A DNA stretch of 64,000 bases, from positions 62,001 through 126,000 of the forward strand of contig NZ_LR134472.1 of the NCBI RefSeq assembly GCF_900637905.1, in the 5' to 3' direction. Within the stretch, counting starts at the first letter, position 1; each line of letters opens with the position of its first letter. The notes below the pieces were generated by a model. The model was not told where the DNA came from. It made no database searches and saw only the letters and a list, made by a program, of their open reading frames with translations. The DNA is from Parvimonas micra. GTDB taxonomy: Bacteria > Bacillota > Clostridia > Tissierellales > Peptoniphilaceae. This document shows, piece by piece, positions 3,993-37,135 of the stretch. Made by a program: the position numbers and the translations under genes.

Positions 3993-6900
3993 CTAATCTT
4001 CCTTTTCATTGGTTTTTAAATTTTGTTTTTCCGATGAGTCATCAGATAATTTTCCTCCACTATCCGAATCTTTTCTTTGCACTTTATCCTTAGTTGTATT
4101 TTCAGATTCAATAGTTTTATTTTTTTCAGAAGTATTATCTAGGTTATCAACATTTTTAATTTCTTTTTTTGAGGCCATAACTTTTCCTGTTTTATTAGAG
4201 TCATCTGCTTTTTTAGAATTTTTCTCATCTTTAATTTCTACAATATTTTTTTTAGACTCTTTCCATTCATCAATATTTGTTATTTTTATATTGAAAATTT
4301 CTACCAATTTCTTTCCGCTTTCATAATTATTTTTTTGAATTAGATTTTCGCAATATGCTCCAACTGATAATTTTTTATTTTTAATAAGTGTACTTATTAT
4401 ACTATTATTTTCAATTTCTTTTTTCGAATCCAAATCCACAACTTTAATTCCAAACAAATAAAAATCTGAATAAGGTATGTTTAAAACAGGTGTTCCGGTA
4501 GTATCCCAGTCGGATTCATTTTCCAGTTTGTTGGAAATAAATAATGTTACTTTTAAATCATTTAAATTAAACTTATCTTCTAATCTATACTGTGTCTTAT
4601 TTGATGTTAATCTAAATATTTTATACACAGGATATGGAACTATTTTAACAGAAATTTCCAATTCAAGTTTAGAACCGTCATTAAAGCTTAATCTTATCTT
4701 GCCTTTTTGATCTCCAAGCTTTGATCTATCCGGTTCTTTTAACACTTCGATACGTGAAATATCTGCGGAACGTGATTTCAATTTTAAATCTCTATTTATA
4801 GCAAAGTCTGAAAATGCACCCCATTTAACGGTTTCTGCAAAATTTTTCATATTTCCATATTTAGGGTCTTTTACCACTACATTTACTATTTCATTTTTTA
4901 TTTCAGGATACAAAATCTTAAATTCTTCTGCTTTGTTTGGAGCAGTATCTTTTACTACAACATTAATTGAAATATCCTTTGTACTCTTATCAGTAAATTC
5001 AAGACTTACTTTCATTAAAGTACCTGTCTCATTTACTTCACTTACATTTGCCTTTTCAATAATTTCAATTTTAGTACCTTCCGGTAAGTCATCAAGATGA
5101 TTTTTTAAATGGCTTAACTCTACTTCTTTACCTTTAATTGTAATCAAATCTTTTGGCTTGTAAACATATTTATCTGCCATAGAAATAACTTTTTCTTTTA
5201 CAATAACATCTATTTCTATCTCTTTTTCACTGCCATCATCAAATTTAAGTTTAATTAAAAGTTTTTGTAGAACAGTTTCATTTACTTTATTTACATCGAC
5301 TCCTCTTAAAACCGAAATATCAGTTTTGTCAGGTAAATTTTTAAGAACACTTCTTATTTTACTTTCTGTTATTTCTGTTCCTTTTGATATAATCAAAGTT
5401 TCCGGCGTTTCTTTGTATAAAAATGCTTTAGGAATCTTTCCTTCAACTTTTGTTTTGATACGGAAAGTATTATTGAATAATACACCTTTATACTTTTCAA
5501 TAACGTCTAATGTATATTCTCCACTAACAAAATCCGCGATTAAAGTCTTATTTTGTGCTTGTCTTAATGGAATTTCGATTTCTTCAGAAGACTTTTTGTC
5601 TTTAGCAATTATTTTAAACTCAATTTCTTTGTTATTAAGTTTTTCGGCAACCTCTTTTGAAACAGTTAGATTTTGAATAAAGTCTGTTGTATTATAGCCT
5701 TTAGTATCATACCATTCAGAACCATCTTTAGCTTTTATCTTAATTCCGGAAATTTCAAAATTCTTAGTCGTGCTTTTAGATATAAGAATAGTATTTAAAA
5801 ATTTAAAACTTTTACTTTCTTCATGAACTACTTTGAGCCTCAATCCGTCCGTAACATTATAGCCTAAGTTTTCTTTATTCAAAACTAATCCGTCTTTAAG
5901 CTCTTTATTATACTCATCAACCACTTTTAAACCATATTTGCCAAAGTCAGAATATGAAACTGTAATTTTCTGATTATTTTTTTTATATATAGTAACTTTT
6001 AAATCTTTTAAATCAAGCTTATCGCCTTCTTTATAAGAAGTTTTAAAGTTACTATCATCAACTCTCATATCATAAAAATCAAAGTTTTTAGCTTTTAATA
6101 ATGCATTTTTAATAGATGTAGCGGTTCCTGTTGCAGTGAAAGTAGCACCACTTACTGCATCATAATCACTACCGTCATAACCAAGTTCTTCTTTAACATA
6201 TACTTTTAACAATGAAAATATCCTGTCATGAATATTTCTTTCTCCTTTTAAATGTGATTCATCTATACTAAGTCCCCATTTACCGAAATTATGTTTTCCA
6301 ATTACTTTATCCAATGCAGCTCTATAAACTTCTACTGTTTGTTCTTTTCCACGTGCTTCTTCCATAACCTTGCTAGTTGCATCTCTTAACACTTCAAATT
6401 TATATATCAAGGATTCAAATTTTTGCATATTTTTAATTCTATCAATTATAGTATAAAATTTTTCTTGGAATATTCCGCCATCATCTACATTTCCGGGTGA
6501 TGTTACGCCCTTTAATCTGTTTAATTCTTCTTTAACAAGCTCTACATTTTCAATTTTATTGTTCTTGATAGTGACTTTTACAGGTATAGGTTTATTAGAA
6601 ACAAATCCATAACTGTCGCCATAATAAACTCCATCAGGATAATTTACATTTTTATCAAGATTTTTAACTTCTTCTGCTGATAAAAATTTATAACTTCCAT
6701 CCACTTTAGAATTTACCAATACAGGAATTTCTACAATCTTTTTACTGTTATCCTTGAATATAAGTTCAACTACAATTTTCGTTTTGCCTTCAGAACTTGT
6801 ATCTGCATTATTTTTTATATTAATTTGTACATCTTCGGGTAACTTTTCTAATGCATCTCGTATCTTTTGTAATCCGATAGTTTCCCCAACATTTGCAATT

Positions 6901-27740: not shown

Positions 27741-30164
27741 TTACTTAGTTTTGACTTTTACTTTTTCCAATACAATATTGCCTTTTTTAACATCTAAAAA
27801 TAGTTTTTCATCACTGAGAATTTGATTCTTTAAAATTTCATCTGCAATTTTATTTTCAAGCTCAGATTTAATAATTCTTTCAAGAGGTCTTGCTCCATAA
27901 GACTTATCATATCCCATATCGGATAATTTTTTAATAATCTTATTACTATATCCAACATTTAGACCAATATTTTTAAGTCTTTTTTTCAATTTTTCAAGTA
28001 AAAGCTCTGTAATCTTAAATATATCTTTTTCGTCAAGTCTTGAAAATACTATTATATCATCTACTCTGTTTAAAAATTCAGGTTTGAACATAATCTTAAG
28101 TTCAGAATTTACAATATCTTTAATCCTATCGTATTCTTTTTCTACTTCATCCTTTTTTGAAGAAAAACCTAAAGTGTTTTTCTTTTCAATTGCAGATGCT
28201 CCTACATTTGAAGTCATAATGATTACTGTGTTTTTAAAATTTACGGTTTTTCCTTGTGAATCCGTAAGTCTTCCATCATCAAGAATTTGAAGTAACATAT
28301 TAAATACATCCGGATGAGCTTTTTCAATTTCATCAAACAATACAACACTATATGGTCTTCTTCTAACTGCTTCAGTTAAATATCCACCTTCTCCATATCC
28401 GACATATCCGGGAGGAGAGCCTACAAGTTTGGAAACAGTATGTTTTTCCATATACTCACTCATATCTATCCTAATCATATTTTCTTCAGATTCAAATAAA
28501 AGATTTGCCAAAGATTTTGCAAGATATGTTTTACCAACTCCTGTTGCTCCGACGAAAATAAAACTACCTATAGGCTTACTACCCAAAGATACTCCTGCTC
28601 TAGATCTTTTTATCGCACTTGTAACTCTGTCAATTGCTGTTCCTTGACCAATAACAATATTTTTTAAATTATCTGAAAGGGACAAATATTTTTGACTTTC
28701 CTCAACAGTTAATTTGTTAACCGGAACCTTACTCCAATCTGAAACAACTTTTGCAATATCATCATATTTTAAAGTTAAATTCTCATTATTTTTTTTGTCT
28801 TTTTTTATCTCTTTAAGCTTTTTAATCTCTTCTAAATTTTGTTCATATCTGTTTTTATATTCCTGAGCTTTTAAAAATTCCTGATTTGCAACAAATTTCT
28901 TTATATCAGCTTTTAATTTAGAATTTTCATCTTTCAAAAAAATTATATCATCCGGATTCAAATATGATTTTATTCTTAACATAGATCCAGCTTCATCTAT
29001 CAAATCAATAGCTTTATCCGGCAAAAATCTATCCGTCAAATATCTATTAGATAATTCTACAGCTGCTTTTATAGCTTCATCTGTTATTACTATCCCGTGA
29101 TGTTTTTCGTATTTTTCTCTTAGACCCAATAATATATTTATAGTCTGACTAATCGTTGGTTCAGAAACTTCTATAGGTTGTAATCTCCTTTCAAGTGCAG
29201 AATCTTTTTCAATATATTTTCTATATTCATCAGTAGTTGTGGCACCAATTAATTGAACTTCTCCTCTAGCTAAAAATGGTTTTAAAATATTTGCCGCATC
29301 AATGGAACCTTCACTACCCCCAGTTCCAACTATATTATGAAATTCATCTATGAATACAATTACATTTTTATTTTTCATAATTTCATCTAAAGTATCCTTT
29401 ACTCTTTTTTCAAAATCTCCACGATACTTACTTCCTGCAAGCATAGCCGGTAAATCTAGGCTATAAATAGTTTTATTTTCTAAAAATTCGGGAACTTTCC
29501 CCTCTACAATCCTAAGAGCAAGACCTTCTACAATGGCAGTTTTTCCAACTCCTGCCTCTCCAATTAAAATTGGATTATTTTTTGTTCTTCTGAGTAAAAT
29601 TTGTAAAATTCTATCTATTTCTTTATCTCTACCTATTACTTGATCTATCTTTCCGTTTTTTGCTCTTTCATTCAAATTTACAGTGTATTTTTCTAGGGTT
29701 TCTGTTGTTACTTCCCCTGTAATATCCGAATCATTTTCAAAATGTATCTTTTCTTTTATATCTGCTAAAACACTTTCAGGACTGACATTAGTTTCAATAA
29801 GCATTTTATATGCAAGGCTTACTTTTAATTCCATTAAAGAAATCAAAAGATGACAAGGTAAAACTTGAATATTATCTGAATTCATTGCAATATCCATAGC
29901 ATTATCTACAACTTTCTTTGCATTTTTAGATAACTTACTAGCAACATTAGAAAAGTTTCCAAAACCTCTCTTATCTATTAAATAACTTTTTAAAGAATTA
30001 TAATTTGCACCTGCTGAAATAAGACTTTCAGTTTCTCTACTATTTATTTTTAAAAAAGCTAATAAAATATGTTCAGTTCCAATATAATCATCCTTAAGAT
30101 AAAATGCTTCATTTACTGCATATCGGATAAACTCATCAACGCTTCTAATTACATTTTCATACAT
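27741..30164 (-). CDS. clpC: ClpC-type AAA+ unfoldase
   Basis: 807 residues. Clp_N repeats (about 5-140), first AAA domain with GEAGVGKTAIVEG, a coiled UVR-like middle domain (about 400-450), second AAA domain with GATGVGKTYLAKS and a C-terminal D2-small domain. The LGF tripeptide at about 665-667 is in the position of the ClpP-docking loop, so it should feed ClpP. Degrades misfolded and regulatory proteins. Last gene of the ctsR-mcsA-mcsB-clpC operon, 11 bp after mcsB. In Bacillus ClpC needs adaptors such as MecA or McsB; the McsB here looks catalytically altered. No clear terminator follows. Confidence 0.95.
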   Translation of the reverse strand: MYENVIRSVDEFIRYAVNEAFYLKDDYIGTEHILLAFLKINSRETESLISAGANYNSLKSYLIDKRGFGNFSNVASKLSKNAKKVVDNAMDIAMNSDNIQVLPCHLLISLMELKVSLAYKMLIETNVSPESVLADIKEKIHFENDSDITGEVTTETLEKYTVNLNERAKNGKIDQVIGRDKEIDRILQILLRRTKNNPILIGEAGVGKTAIVEGLALRIVEGKVPEFLENKTIYSLDLPAMLAGSKYRGDFEKRVKDTLDEIMKNKNVIVFIDEFHNIVGTGGSEGSIDAANILKPFLARGEVQLIGATTTDEYRKYIEKDSALERRLQPIEVSEPTISQTINILLGLREKYEKHHGIVITDEAIKAAVELSNRYLTDRFLPDKAIDLIDEAGSMLRIKSYLNPDDIIFLKDENSKLKADIKKFVANQEFLKAQEYKNRYEQNLEEIKKLKEIKKDKKNNENLTLKYDDIAKVVSDWSKVPVNKLTVEESQKYLSLSDNLKNIVIGQGTAIDRVTSAIKRSRAGVSLGSKPIGSFIFVGATGVGKTYLAKSLANLLFESEENMIRIDMSEYMEKHTVSKLVGSPPGYVGYGEGGYLTEAVRRRPYSVVLFDEIEKAHPDVFNMLLQILDDGRLTDSQGKTVNFKNTVIIMTSNVGASAIEKKNTLGFSSKKDEVEKEYDRIKDIVNSELKIMFKPEFLNRVDDIIVFSRLDEKDIFKITELLLEKLKKRLKNIGLNVGYSNKIIKKLSDMGYDKSYGARPLERIIKSELENKIADEILKNQILSDEKLFLDVKKGNIVLEKVKVKTK

Positions 30165-30175
30165 AAAACTACCCC

Positions 30176-31153
30176 CTATATTAATTTAAAAACTACATTT
30201 AAAAGTTCTTCATCTCTCTCTTTTTCATTTAAAAAAGTTGAACTTCTAACAGTCATAAGATATTCATACAACTCCTTTATATCATAATCAACTATAAGTT
30301 CCAAACTTTGTAATAATATACAAAGTGAAATAAATTTACTAATTATATATGGACTTATATTTTCTCTATTTTTCAAAATTTTCTTATATCTTTCAAATTT
30401 TTCTCTATAATAGTCAGTTTTTATACCCAAAAGTTTTCTACGATTATCTATTTCCAAATTAACAATTTCTGTAATATATTTGTCCATTTTTCTAATAGCA
30501 GAAAACTCTTCTGCATTGTGATTACAAAATTCTGCTATATAAAAATCCTCACAAAGACCTATTTTGGATAAAGAATAAAAGTTAATTCCTAATTTTTTCG
30601 TTTTATTTTCTAAAAATTCAGTCATTTTATAATATTTTAATGACGGGATATGTAAAACTCCAATCATTTTTAATCCATTCCCAACTAAATTCACATCTTT
30701 AAAAACATAGCCGAAATTTGTATTAAATGAGAATTTCAGTCTCTCATCTAAATCTGACTCCAACCCATAAGCAAAATGTCCACATCTAAAAAAATTAACT
30801 CCCGGAAGTTTCCCAGTCAACCTAAGATGTTCCCCAATGTTTATATTCATAAAAACAAACTCATCATCTCTTGAAGCTATATATGAATTTTCTCTAAAAA
30901 TATCATTTGAATACAAAAATATCCCTTTATTATAATATTTTAATATTTGTTTTTTTGTATTTACCTTTTCAAATGTAAACCTATCACTGTAATACAATTT
31001 ATAGAATTGAGAACAAATTTTATTATATAAATTAATTTCATCTTCAAAAGTTAACATACAATTAAATTTGAATCCCTTTATATTTCTATAAACATCAACT
31101 TGACTTGAAAGAGAAACATACTTTTCAGAAATTTTTCCTAAGAAACTACTCAT
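30176..31153 (-). CDS. mcsB: McsB homologue, divergent arginine-kinase-like protein, probably inactive
   Basis: 325 residues in the mcsB position, recognisable by SSQVDVYRN (normally S-S-R-V-R-L-A-R-N), GEHLRLTGK (normally E-E-D-H-I-R-I), GYVFKDVNLVGNGLK (normally G-Y-L-T-x-C-P-[ST]-N-x-G-T-G-L-R) and a C-terminal helical domain. By this eye alignment the catalytic-loop Cys is Asp153, TGLR Arg is Lys162, and the two Arg of the first motif are Gln18 and Asp20. McsB normally phosphorylates arginines to mark proteins for ClpC-ClpP and to inactivate CtsR. Here the fold seems kept but phosphotransfer unlikely. Its ATG overlaps the end of mcsA and clpC follows, so the operon is intact. Confidence 0.85.
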   Translation of the reverse strand: MSSFLGKISEKYVSLSSQVDVYRNIKGFKFNCMLTFEDEINLYNKICSQFYKLYYSDRFTFEKVNTKKQILKYYNKGIFLYSNDIFRENSYIASRDDEFVFMNINIGEHLRLTGKLPGVNFFRCGHFAYGLESDLDERLKFSFNTNFGYVFKDVNLVGNGLKMIGVLHIPSLKYYKMTEFLENKTKKLGINFYSLSKIGLCEDFYIAEFCNHNAEEFSAIRKMDKYITEIVNLEIDNRRKLLGIKTDYYREKFERYKKILKNRENISPYIISKFISLCILLQSLELIVDYDIKELYEYLMTVRSSTFLNEKERDEELLNVVFKLI

Positions 31154-31640
31154 TTATTCTCCTCCTAAATTTCAGATTTTTCTTTTTTAAATCTTCAATA
31201 GCATTTTTTAAAATATCACATTTTAAAAATTCTTCCGTCTCTATACTATGCTCCAGCTCTCTTTCTAAATCTGAAATTTTTATTTCGTTTTCAAAAAACT
31301 CCTTAGCATATTCAGGTTTTTTGCCTCTATATTTTCTAAAATCATTGCATAATAGTCTTTTGATAAAATTTGAATAAATAAGTGTAGGTTTCAATTTCTT
31401 GTTTTCTATAAGTTTATAAATTGTCTCAAAACAACAAGGACAAACAAGTAAATTTGTATGAACAATATCCTTTACAGAAGTTTTACACTTTTTACACTTA
31501 ATATTTGAATTGGAAATTTGACCTTTAAAGTTACAAAACAGTTCATCTTTTTCATAAGATTTTAATGAATTGAATAAATTATCATATTCAATATCTGTAA
31601 TTTCTTTTTCATAACTAATCGTTGCAATTCTCTTACTCAT
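31146..31640 (-). CDS. mcsA: McsA-like zinc-finger/UVR protein, divergent
   Basis: 164 residues. A four-cysteine zinc site, CKKC at about 49-52 and CPCC at about 68-71, corresponds to the second zinc site of McsA; the usual N-terminal CxxC pair is absent, leaving only one early Cys (FCNFKG). The C-terminal part (about 120-155) is a UVR-type helical hairpin. McsA normally activates McsB and steadies CtsR. Overlaps ctsR by 8 bp and mcsB by 8 bp, a fully coupled operon. Identity rests mainly on gene order and the cysteine pattern. Confidence 0.8.
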   Translation of the reverse strand: MSKRIATISYEKEITDIEYDNLFNSLKSYEKDELFCNFKGQISNSNIKCKKCKTSVKDIVHTNLLVCPCCFETIYKLIENKKLKPTLIYSNFIKRLLCNDFRKYRGKKPEYAKEFFENEIKISDLERELEHSIETEEFLKCDILKNAIEDLKKKNLKFRRRINE

Positions 31641-32097
31641 TTTCCCTCCCGAAAGAATACAAAATATTAAGCAAAATATTAGCTCTTAACTTATCTCTAA
31701 CTTTATTATCTACACAAAGAGAATTATCGCTTATAGCGTGTAAAATAATAAATCTTTCTCTTTTTGTGATATATCCCAATTCAAATATTCTATCTATAAT
31801 TCTTCGACCTTCATTAAAAGTTATATTATTTTGTTCTAAATACTCAATAACTGAATTTAAAAATACATCTTCATTTGAAAGAGTTGAAATTCTTATATAA
31901 CCACTCCCTCCTCGACGACTTTCAATATAATATCCTTTTGTTGAAGAAAATCTTGTTGTCAAAACATAATTTATTTGAGAAGGAGCACAAGAAAATCTAC
32001 TTGCTAAATCATTTCTACCTATCTCAATAATCCCATTCTCCGAATTATCTAACATTTCTTTCAAAAATTTTTCTATAATATCACTGATACCTGCCAA
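31633..32097 (-). CDS. ctsR: CtsR transcriptional repressor of class III heat-shock genes
   Basis: 154 residues beginning with TTG (32095-32097), which has AGGAGG 7 nt upstream. Winged-helix DNA-binding half with the well conserved CAPSQINYVLTTRFS and YYIESRRGGSGYIRI, where the Arg-Gly-Gly wing contacts the heptad repeats; the C-terminal half dimerises. CtsR represses clp genes and loses DNA binding at high temperature. It leads the ctsR-mcsA-mcsB-clpC operon and should bind the site at 32109-32124, repressing itself. Confidence 0.95.
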   Translation of the reverse strand: MAGISDIIEKFLKEMLDNSENGIIEIGRNDLASRFSCAPSQINYVLTTRFSSTKGYYIESRRGGSGYIRISTLSNEDVFLNSVIEYLEQNNITFNEGRRIIDRIFELGYITKRERFIILHAISDNSLCVDNKVRDKLRANILLNILYSFGRENE

Positions 32098-32808: not shown

Positions 32809-34518
32809 TTAAAAATTTCTAAAAATATATCTAACTGCATTCTTCACATTATCTATAAATTTTGCAAATCCTTTAGTTTTTTTAGTTGGAAATTCCTTTC
32901 CATATAAAATTTCATAAGCTTTTAATGCTTTATTCACTTTATTTACATAATTTTTAGTTTCTGCTGAAGGAATATTGTAAAGACTAACTCCATCATTTGA
33001 ATATTTTGAATCCTTTAGCCAAGTATTTACATTTCCTATTCCACCATTATATGCTGCATAAACCGTATCCATATTGCTAAAATTTTGCATTAAATATTTT
33101 AAATAATATGTTCCAAATTTTACATTCGTTTCGGGATCGTTTAAGTCAACAGAATTTACATTAACATTTAACAACTTTGCAACATGTTTAGCAGTATCCG
33201 GTAAAACTTGCATCAAACCTTTAGCATTAACTTTACTTACTGCATCACTTTTGAAATTACTTTCAACTCTCATAATGGCTAAAACTACCTTCGGATCTAC
33301 TCCATACTCATTAGAATATTTTTGAATTTCTTCAATATAATTTATAGGATAATTTTTCCCGCCATAATATACGGCTCCCAAAAATAACGCCTTACATATA
33401 ATTAATACTGTTATTATTGTTATTAATATTTTTTTCCACATTTTCATCTTTTTTTTCTTTTTTTTGCCTTTATCTTTTTTTGTATCTTCTACAGCTTCTT
33501 CCTCAAAAAATTCTCCATCAGAATTATTAATACTATTCTGAGCAGAATCAGTAGAATCTAATTTTTCTTCACGCAAAGGACTTAAATCTGTTAATTTAGT
33601 CTTTTCCATATTTAATGAATTTTGATTTTTCAAATTTTTTAAATCGACATTTTCAGTACTTTGTTCATTTGCGAATACTGACTGCATAAAGCCATCCAAA
33701 TTTTCATTATTGTTTAAGTTTTCTTTCTCTAAAGGATGATCATTAAAAACTTCCTCAGCCGTATTCATCGCTTTTAATTCATCTTCAGTTAATTTTCTAA
33801 CTACATCTACATCTTCAGTTTTGTCTTCGACAATTGCTTTGTCTTCTTCAGTTTCTTCTTGTTTACTCTTCTTCAACTTTCCAAAAAATCCAACTTTTTT
33901 TCCTTCATTTATACAACTGTTTTTAAAAAATAAATCAAGTTTAACTTTTAATTCCTCAAAATCACCATTATTTTCGACAGATAAAATATCATAATTTTCG
34001 TTTTCAAACTCTGATTGAATTTCCATAATTCTACGAGCAATTTCTTCTGTAATGCCCTTTCTTTCCATTAGCCTTTTAAATCTAACTTCATCATTTGCAG
34101 TTACATTCCATATTTCATCAATATCAATTAATTTTTCTAATCTGTCTATTGATTCGTTTAAAAGAGGAATTTGTAAAAACACAACTTCTGCATCAGAATT
34201 TTTAGCAAGATTGACCATATTCTTCAAAATAACAGGATGAGTCAAAGAATTAAGCTTTTCTCTATTTTCATCATTCAAAAATACAATTTTTCTTAATTTT
34301 GACTTTGAAATATTGCCTTTTTCATTTAGAATACTGTCTCCAAACTCATTTACTAAAACTTTATAAAGTTCAGCACCTCTTTTATATAATTCTTTAATTT
34401 GATCATCTGCATCTAAAACTAAATAATTTTCGTTCCTCTCTTTAATTAGCTCGGCTAGACTGCTCTTACCACTGGCAATTTGTCCTGTGATAACAATAAA
34501 TTTTTTATTTCGACTCAT
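32809..34518 (-). CDS. coaE: Dephospho-CoA kinase fused to a membrane-anchored lytic transglycosylase
   Basis: 569 residues from the ATG with AGGGGAG 8 nt upstream (the GTG at 34536 is too early). Residues about 5-195 are a CoaE kinase: P-loop GQIASGKSS at 12-20, DADDQIKELY, THPVI and IPLLNES. It makes CoA from dephospho-CoA in the cytoplasm. About 205-355 is an acidic linker; a basic stretch and one membrane helix follow (about 362-387). Residues 390-545 are a Slt/GH23 domain with catalytic Glu419 in RVESNF, then KGLMQVLP and YAAYNGG, which would lie outside and cleave glycan strands. The two are normally separate adjacent genes after polA in clostridia, so this is a fusion. It overlaps the polA stop by 14 bp. 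Confidence 0.93.
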   Translation of the reverse strand: MSRNKKFIVITGQIASGKSSLAELIKERNENYLVLDADDQIKELYKRGAELYKVLVNEFGDSILNEKGNISKSKLRKIVFLNDENREKLNSLTHPVILKNMVNLAKNSDAEVVFLQIPLLNESIDRLEKLIDIDEIWNVTANDEVRFKRLMERKGITEEIARRIMEIQSEFENENYDILSVENNGDFEELKVKLDLFFKNSCINEGKKVGFFGKLKKSKQEETEEDKAIVEDKTEDVDVVRKLTEDELKAMNTAEEVFNDHPLEKENLNNNENLDGFMQSVFANEQSTENVDLKNLKNQNSLNMEKTKLTDLSPLREEKLDSTDSAQNSINNSDGEFFEEEAVEDTKKDKGKKKKKKMKMWKKILITIITVLIICKALFLGAVYYGGKNYPINYIEEIQKYSNEYGVDPKVVLAIMRVESNFKSDAVSKVNAKGLMQVLPDTAKHVAKLLNVNVNSVDLNDPETNVKFGTYYLKYLMQNFSNMDTVYAAYNGGIGNVNTWLKDSKYSNDGVSLYNIPSAETKNYVNKVNKALKAYEILYGKEFPTKKTKGFAKFIDNVKNAVRYIFRNF

Positions 34519-37135
34519 ACCAATTTCTCCCCTCACAAATATCGACTTTCAACGGTAAATCCAATTTATATACATTTTCCATAGAATTTTTTAAAATCTT
34601 CTTAACAGTTTCTTTTTCACTTTCTTCGCATTCTACTATAAGCTCATCGTGAATTTGTAAAATCAACTTCGCATTAACTTTTTCAATTTTCAGTCTTTCA
34701 TAAACTTTAATCATAGCAAGTTTTATGATATCAGCTGCACTGCCTTGTATTGGAGTATTCAAAGCAATCCTCTCTCCAAAACTTCTAATATTAAAATTTT
34801 TGGAGTTAATTTCCGGAATATATCTCTTTCTATCCAAAATCGTTGTTACAAAACCATCTTTCTTAGCTTTATTAACTATTTCTTCCATATAACTTTTTAT
34901 ACTAGGATAAGTATTCAAATATCCATCAATATACTGCCTTGCTTCATTTCTGGTAATATTCAAATCCTTTGAAAGACCATAATCACTTATCCCATAAACT
35001 ATTCCAAAATTTACAGCTTTTGCACTTCGTCTTTGATTATCAGTAACTTCATTAATCGGAACGCCAAAAACTTCACTTGCAGTTTTATAATGTATATCCA
35101 AATCATTTTTAAAAGAATCAATCATAACTGAATCCTTAGACAAATGAGCTAAAACTCTAAGTTCAATTTGTGAATAATCCGCATCAATAAAAACTTTGTT
35201 TTTATCTGCTACAAATACTTTTCTAATATTTTTTCCTTCTTCGCTCCTTATTGGAATATTTTGTAAATTAGGATCTACAGAGCTAAGTCTTCCTGTTGCG
35301 GTAATCATCTGCTTAAAAGAAGTTCTAACTCTACCGTCATCCATAATATACTCCAATATTCCATCTAAATAAGTTGAAATTAATTTATTCAAAGACCTAT
35401 ATTTTAAGATATAATCTACAATTTCATGCTTTTTAGATAATTTTTCTAAAACTTCAACGTCTGTCGAATATCCTGTTTTTGTCTTTTTTACTACAGGTAA
35501 TCCTATTTTTTCAAATAAAATTACACCAAGCTGTTTTGGAGAATTCAAATTAAATACTTCTCCTGCAAGTTCATAAACTTTTTGTTCATACAAATATGCA
35601 AGTTTTGAATATTCCTCATTTAACTCAATAATCTTATTTCTATCTACTAAAACTCCTGTTTTTTCCATATCTGCAAGAACCTTAACAAGAGGTTTTTCAA
35701 CATTTTCATATAATGAAATCAGATTATTTTCTTTAGCTTTTTCTATAAAAATATCATATAAAGCTGAAATTGCAAATACATTTTGTGAAATAAATTTAAA
35801 AATAATGTCCTCTTCCAATTCAAAAAAAGTCTTCTTATTTTTACCTTTTCCAAGCATTTCTTTTAAATCTAAAATTTCTAGATTTAAAAATTCATTACTA
35901 ACTTTTAGAATATCATAATTTCCTTTATTAGAGTCAATTAAATATTCTAAAATCATTACATCTTCATAATTTTTAAATTCTAAATTGTTTTTTAATGCAA
36001 AAAACAATTCTTCCTTTATATCATAACCAATTATCTTTATATCTAAATTACAAAACTTTTCAAAATCTGATAGCTTAAAATTTTTACAAATATAAGCTTT
36101 CTTATTAAAATTCGAATAAATTCCGATATAAAATTTCTTCCTATAGATATACCCTTTATCAGAGAAAAATTTAATTGATATCTCATCATCATTTTTTATC
36201 TTTTCAAAAATTTCTGAAAAATTAATTACTTCAAAATCAATATTTTGATTTGATTTTACTGTACTTTCTTTTTTTATATCTTTAAAATGCTTATTTATAA
36301 TACTATTAAATTCTAATTTTTCTAACTTTTTAAGATATTCATTATAATTTACATCTTTAATTTCAAAATCTTCAATATTTCTCTCAATAGGAACTCTCAA
36401 AAAAATCTCTCCAAGATATCTACTTAAATAAGCCTTATCTTTTTCATTAACAAGATTTTCCTTTAATTTTCCTTTAAGATTATCTATATTTTCATATAAG
36501 TTTTCAAGATTACCATATTCTTGAATTAATTTTAATGCAGTTTTTTCTCCAACTCCCTTAACTCCGGGTATATTATCGGAGCTATCTCCCTGAAGAGCTT
36601 TAACATCAATCAGTTGTTTAGGAGAAAGATCATATTCCTCTAAAATTGATTCTGTATTCATAAGTTTAATTTCACTAATACCCTTTTTTGTCAAATAAAC
36701 AAGAATATTATCATCAACTAATTGTAAATAATCTCTATCTCCCGTAAAAATATCTACTTCAAAGCCTTCTTTTTGAGCAAGTTTTGCAATTGTTCCTATA
36801 ATATCATCTGCTTCATATTCATCAAGCTCCAAATAATTTACATTCATAGAAGATAGTAAATCTTTTAAGATTCCAAACTGATAAGTTATTTCATTAGGAG
36901 CATTATCACGAGTTCCCTTATAATCTGCAAACTCATTATGTCTAAAAGTTTTTGAACCCTTATCAAAAGCTACAAAAATATGAGTAGGATTTATTAATTC
37001 CAATGCTTTGTAGTACATATTTAAAAAACCATACACTCCATTTACAAAAACTCCATCTTTAGTTGTTAAATTTCTTATCGCATAAAAAGCCCTAAAAATA
37101 AGACTTGAACCGTCGATTAAAAGTATTTTTTTCAT
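34505..37135 (-). CDS. polA: DNA polymerase I
   Basis: 876 residues from the ATG of MKKILLIDGSS with GGAG upstream; 12 earlier codons are not used. N-terminal 5'-3' nuclease (about 1-290) with DGSSLIFRAFYA, EYEADDII and FTGDRDYLQL; a middle 3'-5' exonuclease-like domain (about 300-470) in which the D-x-E motif is not visible (ISIKFFSDKG), so proofreading is probably absent as in other Gram-positive Pol I; polymerase domain with RRSAKAVNFGIVYG, motif A DYSQIELRVLAHLS and motif C QIHDELIVE. Fills gaps in repair and removes primers. First gene of an operon with the coaE-slt fusion. Confidence 0.96.
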   Translation of the reverse strand: MKKILLIDGSSLIFRAFYAIRNLTTKDGVFVNGVYGFLNMYYKALELINPTHIFVAFDKGSKTFRHNEFADYKGTRDNAPNEITYQFGILKDLLSSMNVNYLELDEYEADDIIGTIAKLAQKEGFEVDIFTGDRDYLQLVDDNILVYLTKKGISEIKLMNTESILEEYDLSPKQLIDVKALQGDSSDNIPGVKGVGEKTALKLIQEYGNLENLYENIDNLKGKLKENLVNEKDKAYLSRYLGEIFLRVPIERNIEDFEIKDVNYNEYLKKLEKLEFNSIINKHFKDIKKESTVKSNQNIDFEVINFSEIFEKIKNDDEISIKFFSDKGYIYRKKFYIGIYSNFNKKAYICKNFKLSDFEKFCNLDIKIIGYDIKEELFFALKNNLEFKNYEDVMILEYLIDSNKGNYDILKVSNEFLNLEILDLKEMLGKGKNKKTFFELEEDIIFKFISQNVFAISALYDIFIEKAKENNLISLYENVEKPLVKVLADMEKTGVLVDRNKIIELNEEYSKLAYLYEQKVYELAGEVFNLNSPKQLGVILFEKIGLPVVKKTKTGYSTDVEVLEKLSKKHEIVDYILKYRSLNKLISTYLDGILEYIMDDGRVRTSFKQMITATGRLSSVDPNLQNIPIRSEEGKNIRKVFVADKNKVFIDADYSQIELRVLAHLSKDSVMIDSFKNDLDIHYKTASEVFGVPINEVTDNQRRSAKAVNFGIVYGISDYGLSKDLNITRNEARQYIDGYLNTYPSIKSYMEEIVNKAKKDGFVTTILDRKRYIPEINSKNFNIRSFGERIALNTPIQGSAADIIKLAMIKVYERLKIEKVNAKLILQIHDELIVECEESEKETVKKILKNSMENVYKLDLPLKVDICEGRNWYESK

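Follow-up and report, generated by a model that had tools for sequence, protein, structure and literature searches.

The mcsB-like gene of the 64,000-nucleotide stretch of Parvimonas DNA analysed here (the window) is predicted, with good support from sequence comparison, to encode a McsB pseudokinase that is unable to phosphorylate arginine. McsB normally tags damaged proteins for destruction. The gene lies in a canonical McsB operon, ctsR-mcsA-mcsB-clpC, with all four genes on the minus strand:

27741..30164 (-): clpC unfoldase gene, 807 aa
30176..31153 (-): mcsB-like gene, putative pseudokinase, 325 aa; PF00217 49 bits, NF002194 80 bits against a cut-off of 385
31146..31640 (-): mcsA-like gene, 164 aa; NF053706 27 bits, CxxC count
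31633..32097 (-): ctsR, heat-shock repressor gene, TTG start; PF05848 116 bits, PF17727 55 bits
32110..32124 (-): CtsR-box-like operator AGTCAAAGTAGGTCA, immediately upstream of ctsR

The mcsB-like open reading frame is intact and begins with ATG. Its 8 bp overlap with mcsA (ctsR and mcsA also overlap by 8 bp) and the 11 bp gap to the clpC start bear out the initial annotation, which described an intact gene coupled to mcsA and followed by clpC. The mcsA product of Parvimonas has lost zinc finger 1 and retains finger 2 and C-terminal UVR-like helices. A CtsR-box-like sequence (RGTCAAAGTAGGTCA) follows the -10 region and precedes ctsR in 6/6 Parvimonas genomes; the operator half-site used for comparison was taken from published work (PMC12634643), and the evidence for the site is its conserved position, because loose matches in the window alone occur at chance level. 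On this evidence the CtsR circuit appears to be intact in Parvimonas. Among named genomes, the closest mcsB-like proteins (81-86% identity) are those of Parvimonas micra, P. parva and Parvimonas oral taxon 393, and that of 'Tissierellia bacterium KA00581' shares 52% identity with the window protein. Elsewhere in the window, a 575-aa open reading frame (32809-34536, minus strand) encodes a CoaE dephospho-CoA kinase in residues 14-179 and a lytic transglycosylase SLT domain in residues 404-512; this fusion is also full-length in two further Parvimonas genomes.

The window protein matches PF00217 at 49 bits (cut-off 22.4) and scores 40-80 bits with the NCBIfam McsB models, against cut-offs of 381-679; with NF053707 it scores 56 bits against a cut-off of 500, so that the curated McsB cut-offs are not reached. 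A phmmer search of solved structures gave significant matches to McsB and one phosphagen kinase, and to nothing else. An AlphaFold2 model built on 58 family sequences (pLDDT 92.4, pTM 0.90) was aligned with phospho-arginine-bound G. stearothermophilus McsB (6FH3_A) at a VIA-align Z score of 30.8 over 318 residues, and with McsA-bound S. aureus McsB (8GQD) at a Z score of 24.1. As the structural match spans model residues 6-325, both the phosphagen-kinase fold and the C-terminal dimerisation domain are predicted to be retained.

The catalytic segments and the McsA-contact loop are located as follows:

31082..31108 (-): SSQVDVYRN, residues 16-24, in place of SSRVRLARN (SSRIRLARN in G. stearothermophilus)
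30827..30838 (-): IGEH, residues 106-109, in place of EEDH
30707..30727 (-): FNTNFGY, residues 143-149, counterpart of the S. aureus McsB loop Y147-Y153
30668..30697 (-): DVNLVGNGLK, residues 153-162, in place of CPTNVGTGLR

The initial annotation had read the first, second and fourth of these motifs by eye, and all three readings are correct in their profile and structural context. In G. stearothermophilus numbering, R28 and R30 are replaced by Q18 and D20 in the first segment (R23 and N24 are retained), the catalytic base E121 is replaced by G107 in IGEH (H109 is retained), and C167 and R176 are replaced by D153 and K162. At the eight positions R28, R30, E121, R125, C167, R176, R207 and E212 the window protein has Q18, D20, G107, R111, D153, K162, Y193 and I198, R125 being the only one kept (1/8); the catalytic Cys167, Glu121 and Glu212 and four of the five phosphate-binding arginines are absent. 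The alignment is anchored by R23, N24, H109 and G158, invariant in 58/58 aligned relatives, and by the almost invariant G148 and Y149. Structure-based comparison, which the initial annotation had named as able to overturn its reading, does not recover the catalytic Cys and Arg residues, and the Cys167 position is occupied by Asp153. A sequencing or assembly artefact was rejected, as the same degenerate gene is present in five other Parvimonas-group genomes. No second, active arginine kinase was found by PF00217 search, which returned one match per genome both in the window genome, a single contig of 1.68 Mb, and in the family genomes. Lacking the defining catalytic features, the window protein is not properly classed with the protein arginine kinases.

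The degenerate state extends well beyond Parvimonas. A survey of 100 genomes of Peptoniphilaceae, the family to which Parvimonas belongs, from which 92 ctsR loci were retrieved, gave a PF00217 match in 72, and the 72 McsB proteins were aligned together with those of Listeria and Monoglobus and a G. stearothermophilus segment. McsB is intact in 22 genomes from 10 genera (21 match at 10/10 scored positions, and one at 8/10) and degenerate in 50 genomes from 14 genera, within the same ctsR-mcsA-mcsB-clpC operon. Degenerate proteins match at 1-4 of the 10 scored positions, of which the histidine is the only one kept throughout (49 proteins scored, one truncated). About 19-20 further family genomes have deleted mcsB and kept ctsR-mcsA-clpC. 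One family genome (G014, locus L094) encodes an otherwise canonical McsB with Ser in place of the catalytic Cys, and YwlE is present there. No degenerate McsB was found outside Peptoniphilaceae when 249 genomes of the order and 199 of the phylum were sampled; the trait is confined to the family in these samples, because every PF00217 match outside it reaches an E-value of 1e-53 or below, whereas the values of degenerate members range from 1e-10 to 1e-37.

A single ancestral loss of the active site was rejected by approximately unbiased (AU) tests, a result to be taken with caution given the long branches. In the McsB tree the degenerate group requires at least two changes on supported branches (one origin rejected, AU p=0.007), and in a tree of the ClpC AAA-region, a partly independent marker located in the mcsB operon, the degenerate state requires five changes, at least two of them on starred branches (one origin rejected, AU p=8.8e-5). 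From these trees the degenerate state appears to have arisen at least twice; no exact number is claimed because of the long branches. The observation made for one gene in the initial annotation holds, with a wider scope than was given to it, as the state is shared by much of the family and has at least two origins.

Other components of the phospho-arginine pathway are altered in the same genomes. YwlE, the phosphatase that the initial annotation proposed to look for, was recognised by its CTGNTCRSPMA motif and its own clade; it is present in 21/22 genomes with intact McsB and in 0/50 with degenerate McsB, as well as in one fragmentary genome (G016) in which the state of mcsB is not assessable. 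The window genome has no match to the low-molecular-weight phosphatase domain (LMWPc). Those low-molecular-weight phosphatases of degenerate genomes that were read were rejected as YwlE candidates, being ArsC-like (CVHNSCRSQ) and forming a separate clade; the others are covered by a genome-wide motif scan, which found no YwlE motif in degenerate genomes, its four matches there reading CMGNTCS or CSGNTGS or containing a stop codon. ClpC has two phospho-arginine sites, which need E32 and E106, the latter being the main site for activation (PMC12583610). Their counterparts in the window are:

29853..29855 (-): ClpC C104, counterpart of E106, main phospho-arginine site residue
30072..30074 (-): ClpC E31, counterpart of E32, retained

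The E32+E106 receptor pair is thus incomplete in the window ClpC, with E31 present and E106 lost, and in 6/6 Parvimonas ClpC proteins the E106 position is Cys and TPR 81-83 reads SKN. Residue numbering follows what we take to be the B. subtilis ClpC N-terminal domain, which agrees with the Listeria row. The ClpC site features (E32, E106-H107 and TPR 81-83) are all intact in 22/22 genomes with intact McsB, 18/50 with degenerate McsB and 3/19 without mcsB, and on these counts the ClpC site erodes only where the kinase has been lost. With the McsB active site, YwlE and ClpC site features lost, the degenerate genomes would have dispensed with the writer and the eraser of the mark and, in part, with its reader. 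The loss of arginine-kinase chemistry put forward for the single gene is accordingly supported across 50 genomes and 14 genera, by the co-loss of YwlE and by the erosion of the ClpC site.

These data bear on two readings in which phospho-arginine or the catalytic pocket would still be in use. It is very unlikely that the protein is still an active kinase with non-canonical chemistry, or an enzyme repurposed in the same pocket: the fold is intact and Asp153 and Lys162 are constant among Parvimonas, but a single phosphate-binding arginine of five remains in the window protein, pocket positions 107 (G/R/K) and 111 (R/E) vary even among Parvimonas, the degenerate genera have no common replacement pattern at pocket positions, and YwlE is gone wherever McsB is degenerate. 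It is extremely unlikely that the protein reads phospho-arginine instead of writing it. Canonical McsB does have a separate phospho-arginine receptor site, R337/D338 (PMC8370763), and an R-D or R-N pair occurs near the C-terminus in some degenerate relatives; however, the single PF00217 protein per genome leaves these cells with no known writer, and the reader site of ClpC itself is eroding.

The degenerate gene is retained under purifying selection, a conclusion well supported by substitution rates. A comparison among relatives, as the initial annotation had suggested, gave pairwise NG86 dN/dS estimates for mcsB of 0.11-0.16 when Parvimonas species were paired with each other. Pairs from other degenerate genera gave 0.04-0.18, and the range for intact pairs, limited to those with finite dS, was 0.03-0.12. 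McsB is constant at 325 aa, with 77-83% identity, in close Parvimonas species; drift is faster in the degenerate group, and identity between Parvimonas and other genera is about 20%. The window protein thus combines a homologous fold, lost catalytic residues and purifying selection, the features by which a pseudokinase is recognised.

In S. aureus, zinc finger 2 of McsA contacts the McsB loop Y147-Y153 (PMC12467219), and both sides of this interface have been kept. Pairwise identity of the McsA-contact loop goes from 0.46 in intact to 0.52 in degenerate McsB, mean pairwise identity of the active-site columns falls from 0.96 to 0.30, and the background falls from 0.43 to 0.25, the pattern that would be expected if McsA binding were still selected and catalysis were not. 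The corresponding finger of the window McsA is:

31431..31496 (-): McsA finger 2, CKKC...CPCC, residues 49-70, McsB-binding finger with four Cys at canonical spacing

Finger 2 is present in 22/22 genomes with intact McsB, 50/50 with degenerate McsB and 3/19 without mcsB (Fisher p=5e-13, relatedness ignored); most of the mcsB-less genomes form one clade, leaving about three independent comparisons for finger 2 (three usable pairs on supported branches), and when the ClpC and McsA associations were tested with correction for phylogeny, just three independent pairs were available and the tests had no power. In 6/6 Parvimonas genomes finger 1 is absent and finger 2 present; in the mcsB-less genera McsA retains finger 1, mostly without finger 2. 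The open reading frame in the McsA position of one family genome (G081, locus L072) is 323 aa long, about twice the usual length, with a finger near residue 241.

The low dN/dS values, the retained McsA-McsB interface and the presence of the degenerate state in 50 genomes of 14 genera agree with the view of the initial annotation that the gene is kept for something. It is very improbable that it is decaying on the way to deletion, with the constraint on the kinase lost first and the reading frame persisting for a while. About 19 relatives have indeed taken the step of deleting mcsB while keeping ctsR-mcsA-clpC, and the draft genome of Parvimonas oral taxon 393 carries an mcsB frameshift (locus L077, about 5115-5120). 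The draft assembly is one A short in a 7-A run at this place, which is possibly a sequencing error. Decay was already disfavoured by dN/dS far below 1 in each degenerate genus tested, and it fits poorly with the constant length and high identity in close Parvimonas species, the persistence of the degenerate state across 14 genera, and the constraint still acting on McsA finger 2 and the McsA-contact loop.

We consider it rather probable that the pseudokinase, bound to McsA, serves ClpC and CtsR as an adaptor or regulator that needs no phosphorylation. The protein would keep the McsB fold and the McsA contact and join McsA in a complex resembling that of McsA and McsB, acting through binding only; in this complex CtsR, perhaps along with damaged proteins, would be held for or presented to the unfoldase ClpC, and ClpC capacity would be coupled to derepression of the CtsR operon with no phospho-arginine tag involved. 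Sequence comparison shows the lost active site, the selection on the gene, the kept McsA interface, the missing YwlE and MecA and the conserved CtsR operator; that McsA and the pseudokinase form a physical complex, that this complex binds ClpC or CtsR and that degradation is affected we infer. An adaptor for ClpC or CtsR, as suggested in the initial annotation, is compatible with the data and is the mechanism we prefer. Against it stand the best known outputs of McsB in B. subtilis, which require the kinase, the faster drift of McsB in the degenerate group, the poor conservation in Parvimonas of the C-terminal phospho-arginine receptor pair, and the small number of independent events behind the finger 2 contrast. 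A McsA-bound adaptor acting by binding alone is proposed because MecA, a phosphorylation-independent ClpC adaptor, is absent from 100/100 Peptoniphilaceae genomes, and because the C167S form of B. subtilis McsB keeps part of McsB's effect on MgsR: the half-life of MgsR rises less with C167S than with deletion, and the authors interpret this as an adaptor role that does not need the kinase (PMC7235348). Any adaptor role would be dispensable on an evolutionary scale, as several genera of the family have done away with mcsB. The mcsB-less genomes of the family are also without MecA.

A role centred on CtsR is unlikely, although appreciably less so than the active-enzyme, reader and decay readings: the pseudokinase would then be a structural component of a co-repressor or anti-repressor complex, act mainly by way of McsA on CtsR, and hand over no substrates to ClpC. 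In B. subtilis, McsA helps CtsR to dimerise and to repress (PMC12634643); CtsR and the upstream CtsR-box are retained, and the ClpC N-terminal domain is diverging in Parvimonas, so that contact between McsB and ClpC may be unconstrained. Nevertheless, clpC still closes the operon in every degenerate genome and, with MecA absent, ClpC would then be without a known adaptor. For the family as a whole, we regard as evenly balanced the proposition that arginine-phosphate tagging was abandoned more than once and that the kinase was kept each time as a McsA-bound, binding-only adaptor for ClpC and CtsR.

The Parvimonas protein resembles McsB of B. subtilis, G. stearothermophilus and S. aureus (PF00217, NF053707) in its two-domain fold, operon position, McsA-binding loop and a partner McsA with finger 2, and differs from the McsB arginine kinase in lacking the catalytic Cys, both catalytic Glu and four of five phosphate-binding Arg, in a genome without YwlE. 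Loss of the catalytic Cys is shared with the C167S mutant, which keeps part of the effect on MgsR turnover (PMC7235348), but that is a single laboratory change, whereas in Peptoniphilaceae the whole pocket has been lost naturally in many genera. Like MecA, the pseudokinase would be a binding-only ClpC adaptor, although the two proteins are unrelated and MecA itself is missing from the family. Bacterial Ser/Thr pseudokinases likewise keep a kinase fold after catalysis has been lost (PMC12599244), but the fold here is that of phosphagen kinases, not protein-kinase-like, and the pathway is another. No description of a McsB pseudokinase lineage was found in the literature searched, mostly without subscription papers, which does not prove novelty.

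The case for a kinase-independent role of McsB has reportedly rested on modest differences between a deletion and a point mutant in B. subtilis. Many Peptoniphilaceae species appear to answer the question of such a role by evolution, having lost the active site and kept the partner interface; if true, this would be a natural and repeated separation of the scaffold function of McsB from catalysis. Species with degenerate McsB would allow the function of McsB to be studied apart from its kinase and would serve proteomics as natural controls lacking phospho-arginine, and Peptoniphilaceae genes that carry the label 'protein arginine kinase' through homology often probably encode no kinases. That these oral and skin anaerobes have repeatedly lost the tagging residues of McsB and kept the protein together with its grip on McsA makes a second, activity-free job for McsB probable.
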